From a virus, in the IMG/VR virus record IMGVR_UViG_3300032173_000014, positions 1 to 42,116 of that record: a stretch of 42,116 bases of DNA, one strand, 5' to 3'. The notes under the pieces are model-generated. The model saw nothing but the letters and a program-made list of their open reading frames with translations, was not told where the DNA came from and made no database searches. The stretch's first letter is position 1; each line of letters starts with the position of its first letter. Of the stretch, positions 1,076 to 32,586 are shown piece after piece. A program made the position numbers and the translations under genes.

Positions 1076-1627
1076 ATGAAAACCGTGGCGCTCAAAAAAA
1101 TCCTCAAATTGAAATCCTACTACGGTGCGGCCCGAATGCGGGAGATTTACGCCGGGCGAAAGACCTGGACGATAGTCCAGATCATCCAGGAAATCGGCCC
1201 GAAATATGCCATTCCGCCTAAAGACCTCATCTGGACGGCCTTGCGCAAAGACTTTTTTACACCGCGGGCGTTGCGTTTGCTGGCCTGTAAGTTTGCCACG
1301 CGGGCGTTGTCCCGGGTGGCTAATCCCGACCCCCGCAGCGTGCGGGCCGTCGAGGTAGCCCGCCGCTACGCGGTTGGGATGGCCACGGATGCCGAGCTGG
1401 ACTCGGCCCGTGTGGAGGCTGAGGCGGCATGGGAGGCGGCGGCGGGGATGTTTAATAATACAACGGGGCCGACCCGGGCAGCTTGTGCGGTGGTGGATGT
1501 GGATGCGGACGCGGCGGCGACGGCGACGGGGACCTATGCGACGGAGGAGGAGGAGGTGGCGGAGTGCGCGAACCAAATCTCGGACATTATGGCGGCGGCT
1601 CTCGAAGACGAAGAGGCCGGGAGATAG
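1076..1627 (+). CDS. Alanine-rich helical hypothetical protein
   Basis: 183 residues from the ATG at 1076, chosen because AAAAAAGGAG lies just upstream; the frame is also open further upstream through the leader. The N-terminal half is basic and helical. Residues about 80-120 (DPRSVRAVEVARRYAVGMAT, then DAELDSARVEAEAAWEAAAG) resemble the Ala-rich tail common in small phage proteins of unknown function. The C-terminus is acidic, with a run of glutamates, and the 3' end contains GGA/GCG-rich low-complexity DNA. The stop lies 8 nt before the methyltransferase start, so the two are probably co-transcribed. Function unknown. Confidence 0.75.
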   Translation: MKTVALKKILKLKSYYGAARMREIYAGRKTWTIVQIIQEIGPKYAIPPKDLIWTALRKDFFTPRALRLLACKFATRALSRVANPDPRSVRAVEVARRYAVGMATDAELDSARVEAEAAWEAAAGMFNNTTGPTRAACAVVDVDADAAATATGTYATEEEEVAECANQISDIMAAALEDEEAGR

Positions 1628-1635
1628 GCATAAAT

Positions 1636-2688
1636 GTGGCTATTCCTACCTTCAACATACTCTCCATCTGCACCGGTCTTGGAATGCTCTACACCGGAGT
1701 CCTGCTCGCCCTTGAACGGCGCGGCATCGCCGGTCGCGTTGTGGGTTGCGTTGAAAGGGAAGCATGTGCAGCGTCCGCTCTCGTGGCCCGGATGGAAGCG
1801 GAGGCCGCGGGTGCGGCTCCTGTCTGGGACGACATTGCCACGTTCGACGGCAGACCATGGCGCGGATGTGTGGATTGCCTCACTGCGGGCCTCCCGTGCC
1901 AGCCTTACTCCCTTGCCGGGAAACGTGCCGGCAACACCGACAATCGAAGCTGGGGAGCGTCCGGGGGTGAGGACGGCCCCGTGTTCCACACCGTCCGCAT
2001 CATCGACGAAGTGCGCCCCGCCGTGGTGTTCTTCGAGAACGTTCCAGCCTGGGTTACCGGGGGACACTTCCGACGATTTGGCGAGGCGCTATGCGGACTG
2101 GGTTATGAGATCAAAGACCCGATCTTCCTGGCTGCGGAAGACACTGGCGCGCCGCATCGGCGCGAGCGGGTCTTCGTCTTGGCCGTCAACCAGGGCGGTA
2201 GATTCGCAGCGTGGCGGGAATCATCCAGGTGCAACCGACAGCTTAACGGGGGCTACGAAGGCTTGGCCCACGAGCAACGCCAGAGACGCCAAGGGGATCG
2301 ACCAGCACCACCACGAGGGGGCAGCGGGGAACAGCCTACCCAATGCGGTAGTCAATTGGGCGACGGCCCAAGCGCACGACATTCGCAAACGGGGGGCGGG
2401 AAACCGCTTAAATCCGTTGGGCGGTGGGGCGTGTCTGGCGACGGAGGTGTGCGAATTACCCTTTATCCGCCCGGGCGCGGCGACGAATCCAACCCCGACC
2501 ACCCCGACTTCCGCGCTTGGGCTGCTATTGCAGAGCTGGGCCCGACCCGAATGCCCGCGATTGAATCCCGTGTTCCAGTGGTGGTTGATGGGCTGGCCTT
2601 CGCCAACGCTGATCTTCTCCGCATCGGCGGCAACGGAGTGGTTCCGCTGGCGGCAGCAATCGCTTTCGATGCTCTGTTTTTTGCTTGA
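1636..2688 (+). CDS. DNA (cytosine-5-)-methyltransferase
   Basis: Transfers methyl from S-adenosylmethionine to C5 of cytosine in DNA, probably protecting phage DNA from restriction. From GTG 1636 (GGGAG upstream) the protein is 350 residues. Motif I is NILSICTGLG (7-16). Motif IV is GLPCQPYSLAG with catalytic Cys88. Motif VI is FFENV (132-136). Motif VIII is APHRRERVFVLA (172-183). Motif X is RIGGNGVVPLAAA (about 329-341). The region between VIII and X, the expected target-recognition domain, is low in recognisable structure in this frame. The next frame over, open from 1634 to 2695, shows methyltransferase-like C-terminal sequence there (see findings). No partner endonuclease is visible, so it is likely an orphan methylase. 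The start is uncertain because the frame is open further upstream. Confidence 0.9.
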   Translation: MAIPTFNILSICTGLGMLYTGVLLALERRGIAGRVVGCVEREACAASALVARMEAEAAGAAPVWDDIATFDGRPWRGCVDCLTAGLPCQPYSLAGKRAGNTDNRSWGASGGEDGPVFHTVRIIDEVRPAVVFFENVPAWVTGGHFRRFGEALCGLGYEIKDPIFLAAEDTGAPHRRERVFVLAVNQGGRFAAWRESSRCNRQLNGGYEGLAHEQRQRRQGDRPAPPRGGSGEQPTQCGSQLGDGPSARHSQTGGGKPLKSVGRWGVSGDGGVRITLYPPGRGDESNPDHPDFRAWAAIAELGPTRMPAIESRVPVVVDGLAFANADLLRIGGNGVVPLAAAIAFDALFFA

Positions 2689-2756
2689 CGATTGAGTATT
2701 TTTTCATGGGTTACGACAAGCACCCCAGCCAACTCGCCGCCGAGCCGCAGCTACAG

Positions 2757-14102: not shown

Positions 14103-15323
14103 TCAGGTCGAGGAGGAGCTTGTATTGCTGGGCGTCACGCGAATCAGCGTGTACCACGGGCCGGGTACGACGTTGTAGTAGGCGCGGGCGGACACGTCGA
14201 ACTTCTCCCGCTGAATCACGCTGGCCTGGGCATTGGAGCCGATAGCGTTCAGGTTGTGGTCGATGCTGGCCGAAGCGAACATGGCAGCCGCGCCTTCGGA
14301 CAACTTGAACCCCAACGCATCGGACGCCTTGGCCGCCGCATCAATATTTTCTTGCGGATTGTACTGGTTGCCAAACATGGTCAGGTCGCCCGGCGGGGCG
14401 TAGGTCTGGTGAATGAACGGCTTGATCCCCAGCGGGTCGTTGACGATGGCGACATAGTAGTCCGTCTGCGTCACCGGGGTAACGGTTGTTCCGGCCACAT
14501 CGTCCACAACTTTTTCGGCAAACGGCGAGCAGAGGACATCCTTGACGAATTGCTGCGATACGTTGGTCGTCTGACTGATGACGCTCATTGGGGTCTGGAA
14601 GGCCAGACGCATCGCGGGCCGCATGAAGGACGGGGCGATGACGACGATATTATCCTTCGGGTCAATGTAAGGGTTTATGAATTGACCGTTGGTATTCTGG
14701 AAGGTCGAGAAAGCGTCGATGACCAACGCCAGATCATTTTGCAGTTTCTTGGCCAGAACAGCCTGATCGTTCAGGCTGTAATTCAGGAAGTCCGCACGGG
14801 TCGCGGGCAGGTTGCCGCGCACAATGTTCGACTGGTTGCCATATGCGCCGGCGGCATGCGTGTCGCTGAAGATGGGCTTACCGTCCAAAGTCATGGTATA
14901 GCTCACACCATCATTGCTGGTAAGCGTGGCACTGGAGGCCGTGGAGCCATTCAACAGGGCGGTGAACAGCGTGAGGTCGGGGGCCTGGGCGAGGATGATA
15001 CCCAGCCCCTTAAGATAGGCGGTAAACGCGCCGATCTGGTCAGTCTCGACATCCAGGCGATTCAACTCGGACCAATTCTTGAACAGGACATTCGGGATGT
15101 TCAATTGAAAACTCGGCGCGGAGGTGGAGCGCATGGTACCGGCGTAGGGCGATAAATTGGGGGGAGCGCCCAGAAAGGTATATGGCTCAACCTGACGATG
15201 TACCACCCGGTGCATGGCCAGCTTGGGATAGACCAACTCCTGGCTGCGTGGGGCGAATGTTCCAAGTAGGGCGGCGTTGGCAAGACCAACCTGGGAGACC
15301 GTGGTATTGCTGATGTAGGCCAT
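14103..15323 (-). CDS. Major capsid protein, Mu gpT-like
   Basis: 406 residues with a strong ribosome-binding site (CAGGAG, 7 nt spacing). Layout and phrases such as LKGLGIILAQAPDLTLFTAL, DGKPIFSDTHAAGAYGNQSN and IDPKDNIVVIAPSFM fit the HK97-fold gpT family (head subunit of Mu-like phages). The order protease, decoration protein, capsid protein, gp36-like, gpG-like supports this. The C-terminus ends TSSSST. A 56-nt leader holds a CCCCAC/GTGGGG hairpin, and a terminator follows the gene, consistent with individual dosage control. Confidence 0.8.
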   Translation of the reverse strand: MAYISNTTVSQVGLANAALLGTFAPRSQELVYPKLAMHRVVHRQVEPYTFLGAPPNLSPYAGTMRSTSAPSFQLNIPNVLFKNWSELNRLDVETDQIGAFTAYLKGLGIILAQAPDLTLFTALLNGSTASSATLTSNDGVSYTMTLDGKPIFSDTHAAGAYGNQSNIVRGNLPATRADFLNYSLNDQAVLAKKLQNDLALVIDAFSTFQNTNGQFINPYIDPKDNIVVIAPSFMRPAMRLAFQTPMSVISQTTNVSQQFVKDVLCSPFAEKVVDDVAGTTVTPVTQTDYYVAIVNDPLGIKPFIHQTYAPPGDLTMFGNQYNPQENIDAAAKASDALGFKLSEGAAAMFASASIDHNLNAIGSNAQASVIQREKFDVSARAYYNVVPGPWYTLIRVTPSNTSSSST

Positions 15324-24567: not shown

Positions 24568-24863
24568 CAGGCACCTTCTTTTTCTTGGCCGGCAACTTTG
24601 GCGGCGGGGGGTTCCAAGGCGGCGTTAGTGTCGGCGGAATCATGGCGGGGATCGGGTGTATCCAGGGCGATATCAGCGGAAGATTCCGCCTCCTGGTTGA
24701 TTATTTTTACGGATTCCGCCCAAACTTCGCGTAAATAGGGATCGGCAATATCGTCCCCGCCGGGCACGGGGTAGTGCTCCACATCAATATTTCCCTCATC
24801 ATCAAGGTCCGGGGCGTTCAATTCCGCTTCGCTCATATGTCGGCTTGTAGTTTGCGTTGCCAT
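24567..24863 (-). CDS. Small acidic hypothetical protein in head operon
   Basis: 98 residues, strongly acidic and Pro/Ala-rich, probably largely disordered (DLDDEGNIDVEHYPVPGGDD). GGAG lies about 10 nt before the ATG. The start overlaps the portal/topoisomerase gene end by 31 nt and the stop overlaps the next start. An acidic disordered protein here could be an assembly or DNA-mimic factor, but nothing proves that. Confidence 0.65.
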   Translation of the reverse strand: MATQTTSRHMSEAELNAPDLDDEGNIDVEHYPVPGGDDIADPYLREVWAESVKIINQEAESSADIALDTPDPRHDSADTNAALEPPAAKVAGQEKEGA

Positions 24864-27439
24864 GATTTAAATATCTCCGGGTGAATGTAATTATCGCGCG
24901 CCTGGGTGGGCGTGTTGTTCAACACGGCGGCGACTTCGCCGCTCATTTTTAGAATCGCCGCCGCGATGGATTTGGCATCCTTGACTTTGTTTCCCGCCAG
25001 GGGCGGCGGCGGGCCGACAAATGATTTTACCACCTCGCGGGCGGTTTCGAAGGCCTTTAACGTGCGTAAATCCTTAATTTTCAGGTTGGCCGGGCCACCG
25101 ACTTTTTGGCTCACTTCCTGCAACATTTTGCCCGCGGTATGGCTGTCGGCCTGGGGGAAAATAAAGTCTTCCGCGCCGCCGCGCATGGCGTTGCGCAAGA
25201 AGGCCACGTTTTCCTTGTCCCGGATGATGGTTTGGTTGCGCACGCCCGCTTTGCCGATGAAGTCCAAATGTACCGTGTCTCCCACCATTTTGAGGTGGCG
25301 GTTCTGCAACGAGGCAATGCCAAAATGTCCATACTTCACTGAATCGCGGCCATCGGTGGGACGCAAGCCGGTTTCGCGTATAAGCGACGCGATGGCCGCG
25401 CTTTCACGTGCAACTTGGGGCGTTTTAGCGTCGGTCATCCTGTCCCGCAGGGCGGCGGATATTTTCGCGATGTGCGGTTCGATGGTTAGCACGCGGGCCA
25501 ACTTCACCGCGGCGTTGCGCTCGTGAAACGCCCGCGTGTAGCGATATTGCCGGGAAACGCGGCCTTTTTTGCTGGTCTGATTCCAGACCAGCAAGGGCTG
25601 GTAGCGCAAATCTTCCGGCGCTTGGGTAAGATCGGCCATGCGCAAATCCGTCACGGCCAGACGGGTGGACGGGAAGTTGCCAAACATGCCCAGGGCGCGG
25701 AGTTTTTTCTTGCGGGATTCGTCGATGGACGTGACGGGGGTTCCGTGGGTTCCGTGGGTGCCGGGAGTTCCGGGGGTTCCGGGGGTTCCGGGGGTTCCGG
25801 GGCCTTGGCCCTTGGGCACAAACTGGCCGGGGTTTTCCGGCTGGCCCCGGGGATGCTCCGCTTCCTTGAACTCCGCCGCAAAGTCGGACGTAAACGTGCC
25901 CCCGCCATCCGCCACGGCCCCACCGCCGGAGCCCACGGGATTAACCGCCCGGCCATCCTTGCGGGCCACGCCCGGCTGCGCCAGGCCCGCGCCGGGAATG
26001 CCGCCGAACATATCCGCGGCACCGCCCAGATCGGGCTGGCCGTTGAATACCGTGGGCTCTTCAATCCGGCCATCCTCGCCCTTCTTGGGCTCGCGCACGC
26101 CACTGGCTTTGTACACCTCATCCTCCGGCACGGGCACCAGCTGGGCCGCCTTGAGCATGACATCCATCCGCTGCGTTTGGTCTTTTTCTTCGGTGTGCTC
26201 GGTCAGGTGGCGCGGGAAGGCATAGATCGGCAAATCCCGCCACCGCGCGTTCCCACGCACAATCGCGGGAATAAGCTGTTTGTTGAGCGGCTCGTCAATC
26301 AACACCTGGGCGTCATACCGAAACGCAATCGCCGGGCCGGTGTCTTTCTGGCTGGCAATGGCTGAGTATGAGCCGTTGGCACCGACTTCCATGATATTCG
26401 CCCCGCACAGAATGATCTTTTCAATCGCCGGCTTCACAAAAGTTTGCCGCAACTCGCTGAAAGCGTCATACCCCATCTTGGGCGGGTCGGCAAAGTCCAC
26501 GTCCCAGAAGTAATCCTTGCTCTTGCCCGCCGGCTTGGGGATGCGAATCACCGATTCATTGCGGATAGACCTGGCGACCGACATTACGCTGCCGGGGTCT
26601 TGATTATCGGGATGATACAACTTGGTCATGGGCATACCGTGCTTTTCCAGCCACTTCATACGCCACCTGGTGGCGAAGGCATCCATCGTCACCGGCAACC
26701 ACAGCGCCACATCCTCGCCGATGCCGTAAAACTGATACCCCGTATCGCTGGGCCGCGTCCACGTCGGCTGCCCGCGTTTGTACACGGCATAAACGAATCG
26801 TCCCTGCGGCAACGGTGACCAAGCTTTGATACTTTTATCCTGGAACGCGCCGTTGGGTGTCGCCCCCACGTAAGAACCCCACACCGGAGTTTCCCGCGTG
26901 AGTAGCGCTATGCGATTCAGGCGGTCAAACACAAACCGCGTCTTATGCACCGGTTGCCAGTCGACAGGTTTAGTGTCGTCGCCATCCTGTACCCACAAGA
27001 ACTCCAGCCCCTGCCCGCCCATCAGGACGCCGTAATAGACCAACATGAAGAACATCTGCCGACGGTTGGGCAGAGCGGTCAGCACGTCGTTAACGTAGTC
27101 CGCCACCTCTTGCGCCAACGCCTCGTCCACCCGCTTATCCGTCGCTTTTTCTACGCGGGTGGGCAGGCTGGATACCGTCATGGCCCGCAGGTTCATGCAC
27201 GCCGCCACATCCGGATGCATCAGCAACTTCTTGTCAAAGTTGCCGTCCGCGCGCAACGCATCATCAGGATCGGTAATGGCATCCAGCCAGTTGTCGTAAA
27301 GCGTCTCCGGCGTGGCGGCAAACCCGCCCGCTTGCGCCCCGAGCTCCGGTCGCCAAACGGAACCCAGCGTGCTGTTGGCCGGGGATATGTACTGCCCCTG
27401 GGGATGGAAGTTGGCCGGAGTATTTAAGAACGCGGGCAT
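24833..27439 (-). CDS. Portal protein (Mu gp29/DUF935-like) fused to a type IB topoisomerase domain
   Basis: 868 residues, far longer than a usual DUF935 portal. Residues 1 to about 460 are portal-like: DKKLLMHPDVAACMNLR, LVYYGVLMGGQGLEFLWV, LPLPQGRF-like blocks, and KPAIEKIILCGANI with a following QKDTG. A linker follows (about 470-575) with HPRGQPENPGQFVPKG and a GTPGTPGT collagen-like run. Residues 576-868 form a complete TopIB domain with LIRETG (Arg688), NRHLKMVGDTVHLDFIGKAG (Lys730), KDLRTLKAFE (Arg792), LNNTP (Asn842, His position) and QARDNYIHPE (Tyr851). TopIB relaxes supercoils through a 3'-phosphotyrosine. AAGGA precedes the ATG. Confidence 0.88.
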   Translation of the reverse strand: MPAFLNTPANFHPQGQYISPANSTLGSVWRPELGAQAGGFAATPETLYDNWLDAITDPDDALRADGNFDKKLLMHPDVAACMNLRAMTVSSLPTRVEKATDKRVDEALAQEVADYVNDVLTALPNRRQMFFMLVYYGVLMGGQGLEFLWVQDGDDTKPVDWQPVHKTRFVFDRLNRIALLTRETPVWGSYVGATPNGAFQDKSIKAWSPLPQGRFVYAVYKRGQPTWTRPSDTGYQFYGIGEDVALWLPVTMDAFATRWRMKWLEKHGMPMTKLYHPDNQDPGSVMSVARSIRNESVIRIPKPAGKSKDYFWDVDFADPPKMGYDAFSELRQTFVKPAIEKIILCGANIMEVGANGSYSAIASQKDTGPAIAFRYDAQVLIDEPLNKQLIPAIVRGNARWRDLPIYAFPRHLTEHTEEKDQTQRMDVMLKAAQLVPVPEDEVYKASGVREPKKGEDGRIEEPTVFNGQPDLGGAADMFGGIPGAGLAQPGVARKDGRAVNPVGSGGGAVADGGGTFTSDFAAEFKEAEHPRGQPENPGQFVPKGQGPGTPGTPGTPGTPGTHGTHGTPVTSIDESRKKKLRALGMFGNFPSTRLAVTDLRMADLTQAPEDLRYQPLLVWNQTSKKGRVSRQYRYTRAFHERNAAVKLARVLTIEPHIAKISAALRDRMTDAKTPQVARESAAIASLIRETGLRPTDGRDSVKYGHFGIASLQNRHLKMVGDTVHLDFIGKAGVRNQTIIRDKENVAFLRNAMRGGAEDFIFPQADSHTAGKMLQEVSQKVGGPANLKIKDLRTLKAFETAREVVKSFVGPPPPLAGNKVKDAKSIAAAILKMSGEVAAVLNNTPTQARDNYIHPEIFKSWQRKLQADI
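25740..25802 (-). repeat. 9-bp minisatellite encoding the Gly-Thr-Pro linker
   Basis: Seven tandem 9-bp units on the + strand (three variants, then four identical copies of GTTCCGGGG). On the coding strand they give the (GTP)n and GTH linker between portal and topoisomerase domains. Copy number is likely to vary between isolates without breaking the frame. Confidence 0.85.
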
Positions 27440-27449
27440 ATGGTTATCC

Positions 27450-28727
27450 TTAAATCGTCATCGTGACGGTTTCGTATTCCAGGCCGCTGGAGGCACCGGG
27501 CGACGCTTTCCCCGCGCTCTCATAATACACCGGGGGCAACTCGCGATACAACGGACGATGTTGAACCGCTAACGCCAGAGCCATGACGCCATCATCGGTC
27601 ATGCCCGCCACGGTAGCGTACCGCACGCCGGTTTTCGTATATTCGTACCCGAAAGATTCCAGTTCCGTCGTCAGTAAACCTGCGGGAATACGCAACTCCC
27701 GCCGCTGTAGCGCCGCGGCCAAGCCTTCCATCAACCGCTGTTTGGATGGGCCGGAGAAAATATAGCCTTCAATCAACGGCGCGGCGGTTTGCAAACGTGC
27801 CACGACCGGATCACCCAGGCCGGTGGCGTCAATCAAGGCCGGGGTGTCCCTGACCGCATCCAGGATGCGCCGGTGGGACTGCTCCCAGTCCGCCTGCCAA
27901 CGGTCGGAATAGCACACGCCGCCGGACTTGTTCAGGCCGATCACCCACAGCCAATCTTGCTTGCGGGCCAAGTCGATGCCGAACACCTCAGGTGGGCCGC
28001 TGTCCAAGGCGTCGATGGTGCAAGCGCGGATGGCGTCCATACCGAACGGATTACTTCCATCATCGGACGCTTCCGCCATAAACAGCTCCTGGAAAACCGC
28101 AGGAGGCAGTTGACGTTTGGCGTCGTCAATTTCCGTGGTTTTTAGAACTCCCCCCGCGATGGCGTCCAGCGCGGTCAAGCGAAAGTACGCCATATGGGGC
28201 GCGCCGGACTCGGCTAGGCGGGCCAATTGATAGGCCCAGTTCTTGCGCCCGCGCACGTTGCCGATCACGCGTACCGAACCTTCCGTGGCGGTCAGGGTGG
28301 AGCGTACCGCATACCACGCCTCGGCTTTGGCGCGACTCGCCTCGTCGATGACCGCGGCGAACACATCCTCGCCATAAAGCAGGTCGGGACGATCCGCGCC
28401 CTTAAACCAGAGGCATGCCCGGTTTTTCAACGTGATTGTGCAATCGCTTAAATTAGCTGTCCAGAACTCTTGCCGCAAATCCGTGCGGAGCAGCATATTT
28501 TTCATGCGGCGAAAGGCGATCTTGGCCACGGGCAGCGTTGGGGCAATCCACCAGTAGTTGCGGTTGGGCTTGGGGGCCGTCCACGCCTGCGCCAGGAGCC
28601 AGCAGATACAGGAGATGGTTTTCCCGGATTTGGTGGAAGCCTCGATGATCGAGAACCGTTCCGGCGTGAACACCGCAGCTTTTTGTTTCGGATAGAGCCG
28701 CGGAAACCTGAGGGTCACCGCGGTCAT
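27450..28727 (-). CDS. Terminase large subunit
   Basis: 425 residues from ATG 28727, preceded by GGAGG; the frame is open 11 codons further up. Walker A is EASTKSGKT (29-37) and Walker B DVFAAVIDEAS (121-131), followed by the coupling region. The C-terminal nuclease domain begins near FGIDLARKQDW, whose Asp would be the first metal ligand, with ALIDATGLGDPV as the next acidic strand. It packages DNA by ATP hydrolysis and cuts concatemers. It lies just upstream of the portal gene; a degenerate IS remnant separates it from the small-subunit candidate. Confidence 0.9.
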   Translation of the reverse strand: MTAVTLRFPRLYPKQKAAVFTPERFSIIEASTKSGKTISCICWLLAQAWTAPKPNRNYWWIAPTLPVAKIAFRRMKNMLLRTDLRQEFWTANLSDCTITLKNRACLWFKGADRPDLLYGEDVFAAVIDEASRAKAEAWYAVRSTLTATEGSVRVIGNVRGRKNWAYQLARLAESGAPHMAYFRLTALDAIAGGVLKTTEIDDAKRQLPPAVFQELFMAEASDDGSNPFGMDAIRACTIDALDSGPPEVFGIDLARKQDWLWVIGLNKSGGVCYSDRWQADWEQSHRRILDAVRDTPALIDATGLGDPVVARLQTAAPLIEGYIFSGPSKQRLMEGLAAALQRRELRIPAGLLTTELESFGYEYTKTGVRYATVAGMTDDGVMALALAVQHRPLYRELPPVYYESAGKASPGASSGLEYETVTMTI

Positions 28728-28743
28728 AAAGACCTCCGGGATA

Positions 28744-28958
28744 CCCCTGCCTTTAGGCATGGGGAGGGATAAGAGTTGGCGGTATTCCGCCCAAGTATCA
28801 GCACACCGGCGTTCCCGTCGTGGCGGTTGACCCGCGCCATACGAGTCGCCTTTGTCCTGCTTGTGGGGGTATCAACAAAGCCAAGCGAAAGAGTCAAGCT
28901 AACCTCCTTTATGTGTCGTGCGGAGCCGGGGGGTTGTTTACTGGTCGAACTCGATCTT
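28744..28958 (+). pseudogene. IS200/IS605-type remnant: end hairpin plus TnpB C-terminal zinc-ribbon fragment
   Basis: CCCCTGCC-TTTA-GGCATGGGG (28744-28764) looks like an IS200/IS605 terminal hairpin. A second stem, TTGGCGG/CCGCCCAA, follows. The + strand frame from 28757 to 28958 has no start and reads YQHTGVPVVAVDPRHTSRLC, then PACGGINKAKRKSQ and a later VSCG, which is the C-terminal zinc-ribbon block of TnpB/OrfB. It then runs out of homology. The rest of tnpB and any tnpA are absent. The fragment fills the gap between the terminase genes and overlaps 21 nt of the upstream gene. Confidence 0.75.
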
Positions 28959-30678: not shown

Positions 30679-30770
30679 CTACCAGCGTTTGGGGTCTTTG
30701 AGATTCGCCACCGGGCCGAACGCGCGCAACTCCTGGGCGCGATTGGGTGATTCGGGATCGGCTGTTGAGG
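30679..30770. repeat. 92-bp direct repeat, copy 2 (fibre C-terminal tag)
   Basis: Second copy of the element at 29338-29429, encoding the C-terminal tag of the protease-fibre protein. The two copies end both fibre genes at the same codon. Confidence 0.9.
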
Positions 30771-32586
30771 TTCCCGCCACGCCCAGATTTGAGGTTCCGG
30801 CTAGAACCTTGTTCGCCGGAGCCACATACGGCGAGTTGGGCGAATATAGCCAGGTTGTTCCGTTGTCGATGGACAACCTGTCGTTAAAAGTGCCGCCTTG
30901 GACGATATAGTTGTTCGTTACCGAGCCGTTAAAAGTGCCGCCGTAGATGTAACTGTAGTTCGTTACCGCACCGTTAAAAGTGCCGTAGTCGATGCTGCCG
31001 TTGTTCGTCACCGCGGCATTAAAAGTGCCGCCGTTTATGTCTCTGTAGTTGCTCGTCACCGCCCCGTTAAAAGTGCCGCCGTTGATGAAACCGTCGGTCG
31101 TCACCGCCCCATTAAAAGTGCCGCCGATGATGGTGCTGTTGTAGCTCCATATCGCGTCGCCGATAGCGATTCCCGACGCCGGAGCATAGCCCAATGTGGT
31201 GGCGGTGTTGATCGTATCCGCCGATGTAATACCCCCCGGTACCGTAGTGCCGCCAGCAGTGGTGGCATAGTTGTTGATGTCGGAAACATCGCCGCTGATA
31301 TTTCCCCGCCAGTAGTAGGTAGCCACAAAACCTCCCTGTTGGCTGGGGCCAACGGTTACGAGTATTCCTGCCGTAGTCGTGCTGTCTCCAACCGCGGTCA
31401 GGGTATATACTGTGTTTACACTGGGCGACACAACGTATGTGCCCGATAGACCAACCGCGCCAATACCCTGATTGAGGCTAACGGTTGTGGCGTTCGTAGT
31501 GCTCCACGCCAAAGTTACTGGCGTACCCGGAGCAACATTATAAGCTGTCGCGGTGAACGATACTGTGGGTGCAATCAGGGCGTGTAAAGTCACCGATGCC
31601 GTAACCGGTGTTCCCGACCAGGTAGCCGTCAAGGTATAGGTAGTGTCCGATATATTTACGGATAAGCTGCCGGTTGCCGCTACCGTGCCGATACCCTGGT
31701 CGAGGCTGACCGCCGTGGCACCGCTTACGTTCCAGGTCAACGTAACCTGTGTACCTATGACCGCCGTGGTAGTCGACGCGGTGAATTGTACGCTGGGAGC
31801 GATGTCGTTATATGTACCTAGATAGACATTGGTCACCTGAGCCTGCGACCCCAATAACTCGGTCATCTTGGCGTTTATATCCGCCTGATAGTATGCAATA
31901 GAAGGCCCACCCGACGCCGAGTACCAGCACGCCAGCAATACCGGTTCATTCGATACAACCAAAAAACACGGCGAACCGGAGGCATACAGTGAAGGCCATT
32001 CATTGAAAGGGTACCGAGGACTACTTGTCGATGAAGATGTGCACGCGGAAAAGGAATCTAAGCTGTACAATTCCCTGACCACCGCCCGCATAGTTGGATC
32101 GGACGAGGTGCTCATCTCGGTCAGCGCCGGAACGGTGGCGATAGATGTCGGGCGAAGTTTGGTGGCCCAGTTTGTCGGCAGCACCTTGGCCGGTATGACT
32201 TCGGCGGGTAGGGGCGAGTCCAACATCAAAATAGCAATATCGGTCGTGCCGATCCGGGCCTGCGCGGAAACTGTCCGGGTGTACAACACTCCATCTGTGC
32301 CGCGGAATCGCACAGTCCGGCCAACTACGCCCGGATCAGTGACCCAAAAGTGCCAAGCTGTGACCGCAAACCGGGGATGAATCAGGGTTGGCCCGCCCCA
32401 GCGTCCGCCCCAGGAATTATAAACGGCACGGCAGGTAAGGGCATTACGGATCGGGTACGCCCAAGAATTAGTATCCCACGTATAGGTGGGAGTAGTGTCA
32501 TCCTCAACCGAGAATAACCGCACCGCCCTCCCCGTGATGAGGAGGGCATCGAGTTCGGCGGCGATGGTGTCGGCGAGGTAGGGCAC
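30679..32586 (-). CDS. Trypsin-like serine protease fused to Ig-like domains and beta-solenoid repeats
   Basis: 635 residues from a GTG without a clear ribosome-binding site. Residues 45-250 resemble a chymotrypsin-fold protease: RFAVTAWHF (His79), TTDIAILMLDSPL (Asp116) and YASGSPCFLV (Ser203), i.e. the full His-Asp-Ser triad. Two Ig-like domains follow (about 264-335 and 340-412, each with VTLTWNVSGAT or VTLAWSTTNAT). Residues 486-572 are six 14-16-residue units of the type INGGTFNGAVTNN. The C-terminal 30 residues repeat those of protein B. It looks like a virion-associated or secreted protease/adhesin. Confidence 0.75.
   Translation of the reverse strand: MPYLADTIAAELDALLITGRAVRLFSVEDDTTPTYTWDTNSWAYPIRNALTCRAVYNSWGGRWGGPTLIHPRFAVTAWHFWVTDPGVVGRTVRFRGTDGVLYTRTVSAQARIGTTDIAILMLDSPLPAEVIPAKVLPTNWATKLRPTSIATVPALTEMSTSSDPTMRAVVRELYSLDSFSACTSSSTSSPRYPFNEWPSLYASGSPCFLVVSNEPVLLACWYSASGGPSIAYYQADINAKMTELLGSQAQVTNVYLGTYNDIAPSVQFTASTTTAVIGTQVTLTWNVSGATAVSLDQGIGTVAATGSLSVNISDTTYTLTATWSGTPVTASVTLHALIAPTVSFTATAYNVAPGTPVTLAWSTTNATTVSLNQGIGAVGLSGTYVVSPSVNTVYTLTAVGDSTTTAGILVTVGPSQQGGFVATYYWRGNISGDVSDINNYATTAGGTTVPGGITSADTINTATTLGYAPASGIAIGDAIWSYNSTIIGGTFNGAVTTDGFINGGTFNGAVTSNYRDINGGTFNAAVTNNGSIDYGTFNGAVTNYSYIYGGTFNGSVTNNYIVQGGTFNDRLSIDNGTTWLYSPNSPYVAPANKVLAGTSNLGVAGTSTADPESPNRAQELRAFGPVANLKDPKRW

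Follow-up and report, generated by a model that had tools for sequence, protein, structure and literature searches.

Cytosine-C5 methyltransferases of the two-polypeptide kind are already known from single enzymes, M.EaeI being named alongside M.EcoHK31I as a close known system. In 1995 Lee, Kam and Shaw reportedly found that the gene of the large chain of M.EcoHK31I also contains, in another reading frame, the coding sequence of the small chain. M.EcoHK31I (YGGCCR) carries motifs I-VIII and X in its larger chain and motif IX in its smaller one (PMC3404938), and its predicted target-recognition region has been assigned to the larger chain. M.AquI (CYCGRG) is a split C5-methyltransferase whose second chain holds part of the variable region together with motif IX and motif X (PMC3404938). 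The ShiLan domain, or hidden HNH element, is an inserted homing endonuclease coded out of frame in a phage methylase gene (PMC11855218).

The window, by which we mean the whole stretch of DNA analysed (42,116 nucleotides, IMG/VR record IMGVR_UViG_3300032173_000014), is, going by its structural gene matches, a tailed-phage-like virus record. On its plus strand, an entire methyltransferase gene (frame A, 1636..2688, GTG start) is overlapped by an open +1 frame (frame B, 1634..2695, 353 aa), whose ATG start lies 2 nt upstream of that of A. As in M.EcoHK31I, the large chain of the window has motifs I-VIII and X and the second frame has motif IX; as is said of that enzyme too, the second chain uses another reading frame of the first gene, here the +1 frame in 188 of 188 loci. 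This likeness is one of motif layout. Unlike in M.EcoHK31I, the putative beta chain of the window runs the full length of the alpha gene and begins almost where alpha does, selection puts the target-recognition region in beta and not in the larger chain, and the modules switch frame between lineages. The window shares with M.AquI a motif IX in the second chain, but its motif X is in alpha, whereas the split relatives (L107, L124, L183, Firecracker L028 and Upyo L251) have X in the second chain. The single-chain mycobacteriophage C5-methylases of the RitaG gp71 type have a like catalytic half, an LPTPxASD-type target-recognition region, an EWMMGWPxGW motif IX and a motif X, but all in one frame; in the window the target-recognition region and IX are in B, and neither the window nor its subfamily has them between VIII and X on the same chain. 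Out-of-frame coding within a phage methylase gene recalls the ShiLan element, but the second frame of the window appears to belong to the methyltransferase itself, is co-extensive with its gene, and gave no HNH endonuclease match in Pfam. In the open-licence literature searched, we found no description of co-extensive overlap, tandem starts, partitioned selection or frame mobility.

We propose, with a probability of roughly 0.83, that this locus encodes a two-subunit cytosine-C5 methyltransferase whose complementary chains lie in co-extensive overlapping frames. Frame A would give an alpha chain in which an unordered bridge links the catalytic domain (motifs I-VIII) to motif X, and the +1 frame a beta chain, initiated at its own start 2 nt from that of A, the second half of which would supply the target-recognition region and motif IX. 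We infer from the sequence that both frames are translated and that alpha and beta assemble as a heterodimer into one active enzyme, with specificity residing in beta and with a probable role in shielding phage DNA from host restriction.

The first-pass annotation had read the main frame as a methyltransferase with motifs I-VIII and X, and this reading is borne out by a Pfam match and by selection in frame A over these motifs. Indeed, frame A matches PF00145 (1.7e-22) over residues 21-188 only, i.e. its first half, and carries the catalytic PCQ, ENV and RxR motifs on a C5-methyltransferase fold. In its AF2 model the pLDDT is about 90 at residues 1-185, falls below 50 at 226-284 and 305-322 and is high again at 330-350 (the motif X helix); the best Foldseek match of this model is M.HhaI (7.7e-12). 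The catalytic part (1651..2181) includes PCQPYS at 1894-1911, ENV at 2035-2043 and RRERVF at about 2158-2181, and motif X (2605..2685) reads RIGGNGVVP, with its GN at 2629-2634. Between the two, in frame B, lie the predicted target-recognition region (2180..2560, with WPTSNARDAKG at 2264-2296) and motif IX, LNPVFQWWLMGWP (2561..2599), of the form LNPxFVEWLMGWP, which is placed by its collinear position, by the single-chain homologs L248 and L249 and by the selection, mainly in B, of the region preceding X. The +1 frame does stay open to 2695, and every phrase that had been quoted from either frame was found in the sequence. Both frames do consist of methyltransferase sequence, as the first-pass annotation proposed.

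Frame B matched no Pfam family and no NCBIfam family, and its match to PHROG 1008, ‘DNA methyltransferase’, has an E-value of 2e-4. Predicted alone, it gave a poor AF2 model (mean pLDDT 54, pTM 0.26), and no fold match was obtained for this low-confidence model. Profile comparison (hhalign) of B with conventional enzymes aligned just 22 columns, at motif IX, with a weak E of 0.44, and when the chains were joined in silico the TIGR00675 match in an NCBIfam scan was not extended past the catalytic half, an uninformative outcome. A protein that on its own has neither a Pfam, an NCBIfam nor a fold match could be independent of the enzyme rather than a subunit, overprinted on its gene and serving, for instance, in anti-restriction or regulation. 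We consider this very unlikely, because single-chain methyltransferases (L248, L249) contain the modules of B in the order expected, because in the split forms it is B that carries motif X, and because the AF2 model of alpha has no ordered target-recognition region.

The arrangement of the modules among relatives is in keeping with a subunit role for B. Four architectures were found, across which the order of the modules is constant and their frame varies. The interleaved one, which is that of the window and the commonest here, has motifs I-VIII and X in A, with B supplying the target-recognition region and IX. In the split architecture A ends shortly after motif VIII, and B comprises the target-recognition region, IX and X. 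Another has motifs I-VIII, IX and X in A and the target-recognition region alone in B (L248, L333-L335). Finally, 28 single-chain loci (RitaG type, e.g. L249) have all three modules in frame 0, in the order motifs I-VIII, LPTPSASDG, EWMMGWPAGW, then GNGVCPQQ. Motif IX of the B type is found inside the single chains L248 and L249. Since the same B modules are joined elsewhere to motifs I-VIII and X within a single chain, B would be the missing half of the enzyme; here we show it to be, as judged from module sequence and order, a homolog of the target-recognition/IX part of single-chain enzymes. If this holds, the existence of split, interleaved and single-chain forms offers a direct route to study the origin and resolution of overlapping genes.

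Which frame selection follows was assessed by the codon-substitution analysis across homologues that the first-pass annotation had advised, using 98 pairs at 80-98% A identity and 63 pairs in the window-like subfamily. The window is without a close relative, and selection was measured in its subfamily rather than in its own lineage. In the geometry of the two frames, the third codon position of A is the second of B, and the first of A is the third of B. The pairs are not independent, so the comparison is not a formal test, and what counts in it is effect size and the reversal between segments. The shares of differences at first, second and third A positions were.25/.13/.62 (98 pairs) and.23/.12/.65 (window-like subfamily) in motifs I-VIII, against.62/.20/.18 and.57/.21/.22, respectively, in the target-recognition region. 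The motif IX stretch gave.49/.20/.31 and motif X.38/.06/.56 (both 98 pairs), the third-position share of motif X being.54 in the window-like subfamily. In the target-recognition region B-silent changes outnumber A-silent ones by about 4:1 between close relatives; 888 of the former and 263 of the latter were counted in this subfamily, where B is also the frame followed over the first 20 codons. Motifs I-VIII and X are under selection in frame A, and the target-recognition region and IX in frame B. Purifying selection acts in both frames, on complementary segments, and homologues likewise exist for both and not for one frame only.

At the WPTP motifs all four bases occur at B third positions, which argues that selection bears on the B protein and not on a DNA motif. 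Synonymous A codons are near-fixed where B is conserved (Gly GGG in 122/123, Arg CGA in 101/103 and GCC in 107/107). The main-frame phrase LAHEQRQRRQGD was rightly called the shadow of WPTSNARDAKG: the frame A residues beneath WPTP are [VLM]-A-[DNHY]-[ATSP], the last two of which vary silently in B. The opposite shadow, with B conserved merely through A and codon bias, seems to us extremely improbable. Open +1 frames are easier in GC-rich loci, and LADT with GC-ending codons does yield WPTP, but the +1 relation also holds at GC 0.46-0.50, and in the target-recognition region A varies while B is constant. Furthermore, shadowing should place differences mainly at B second (A third) positions, and this test gave the reverse; the B-HMM score lies above all 30 shuffles in 167 of 169 loci, and nothing similar is seen in conventional C5 enzymes.

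In the window as well, B exceeds chance and is a true protein family rather than a shadow. Its score against the B-family HMM is 155.4 bits; the second half alone, scored with a profile built without the window, reaches 46.3 bits (E = 1.5e-13), where the maximum among 988 shuffles is 24.8 bits. When the synonymous codons of A are shuffled in the window, a mean of 4.06 stops appears in +1, versus 0 observed (P = 0.002). An earlier zero-stop count over the B region was biased, the region having been picked inside one ORF, and counts over the catalytic half were used instead. There, +1 stops number 0 versus 25 expected in A-selected loci and 4 versus 203 expected in B-selected viral loci, the +2 control of the latter showing no stop depletion. 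A shuffle test of the catalytic half only was dropped as support for B: the B-profile gave z 7.2, but the +2 control was also high (z 5.7).

The two frames of the window begin in overlapping starts, ATGTG (ATG 1634 for B, GTG 1636 for A), preceded by GGGAG at 1619-1623, a candidate common ribosome-binding site (whole element 1619..1638). Relatives keep tandem starts, and most full-length loci have [A/G/T]TGAATGAG, with A at NTG and B at the ATG four bases on. Translation of B from near the A start is what we infer from this layout. One proposal of the first-pass annotation was that ribosomal slippage makes two products of different specificity; against it stand the openness of both frames throughout and the own start of B, and no common slip site was seen at the frame junction across loci. 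The suggested slip point, a G5 run that lies at 2248-2252 and not at 2250-2254, is one of six homopolymer runs of at least 5 in the gene, and its use as a slip site is not supported. The other proposal, that the target-recognition region was overprinted after a frameshift, fares better in one part: the selection data agree with overprinting and with the location of this region in the other frame, but a frameshift accident does not fit with frames that are both open from start to end in many loci.

A double frameshift decoding would yield one chain, by starting in A, slipping +1 after motif VIII into B for the target-recognition region and IX and slipping back for X. Such a scheme would account for the A-B-A alternation of the selected segments, and homopolymers of at least 5 are indeed more frequent around the junction, occurring in 64/158 loci versus 34/158 for a control stretch. 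We nevertheless consider it unlikely: B stays free of stops from the A start on and can initiate by itself, the A linker likewise remains open, every locus would require two shifts, no common slip site was seen, and there are split loci as well as short, nested forms of B. Two separate chains remain the reading that we prefer. In L145 (1427-2215) we noted a single stop in the A linker, with motif X open again beyond it in the same frame.

In Synechococcus and Acidovorax phages, tblastn with B led to the loci already matched by A. A search from a B seed alignment retrieved relatives from no fewer than 580 viral contigs and at least 530 bacterial or archaeal contigs, and hosts of the B family include Pseudomonas, Acinetobacter, Myxococcus, Paenibacillus, Planctomycetota, an archaeal MAG and, as a later addition, a Leptospira plasmid. 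In all 188 fetched homologous loci (167 obtained via B queries and 21 via A; GC 0.46 to 0.71), B is offset by exactly +1 from an A-type methyltransferase, and a later scan with a different, mostly A-type query found +1-frame B modules in most of 80 loci. By contrast, a PF00145 search of 143 gammaproteobacterial genomes returned mostly conventional enzymes, whose +1 frame is stop-filled and has no B match, and a handful with B; some of these carriers have a short nested B with +1 stops over the catalytic half, and others a gene-spanning B. It seems fairly likely that these loci form a large, mostly unannotated phage, prophage and plasmid family in which complementary enzyme halves share co-extensive overlapping frames and a common translation start region, the target-recognition region, IX and X moving between frames in evolution. 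L224 and L229 are methyltransferase loci without B, in which the +2 frame is nearly stop-free. The number of WPTP-like units per B protein varies from 0 to 6 (L002-L188), possibly reflecting a repeat-built recognition region.

One could also see in these loci an ordinary methyltransferase broken by indels, through decay or sequencing error, with its old frame still readable. Near relatives among mycobacteriophages do differ in this way, the target-recognition region being in or out of the frame of motifs I-VIII (RitaG-like L254 versus L268 and L272). Yet such an origin is hardly credible for the whole set, as the +1 relation is found in 188/188 loci despite low identities, both frames are intact over about 350 codons, and substitutions show current selection in both. 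Among the same mycobacteriophages, about six LPTPxAxD units lie in +1 in L272, at the place where a deletion in RitaG joins the frames, and L267 is identical to L254 apart from two single-base insertions in the methylase gene; these may be real or a sequencing error.

Database annotation usually gives one of the two genes, and depositors pick either frame. For Alfacinha, the annotated methyltransferase genes are those of frame B; CDS0044 of phPA-G (B) is ‘hypothetical’; A is what the Leptospira and Salmonella phage records give, and both frames appear for Paenibacillus phages. In PHROGs, B is scattered over ‘DNA methyltransferase’ and unknown families, pieces of it matching PHROGs 1008, 26627, 35493 and 27243. 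If our reading is right, cloning by the annotation would yield inactive protein for many phage ‘orphan’ C5-methyltransferases, since half of the enzyme lies in the frame that the database omits. The locus would also make a clear example, found in nature, of dual coding on the same strand, with selection divided between frames module by module.

Elsewhere in the window, matches to PHROGs on the minus strand (14106-15323, 24836-28760 and 30682-32586) correspond to a major head protein, portal, terminase large subunit and virion structural protein. Upstream of the methyltransferase, positions 1-970 form a tandem array of about 12 copies of a 78-bp unit (71% matches), with repeats such as AGRDLSWARADGDAEVRREAAWADR, which is open in more than one plus-strand frame.
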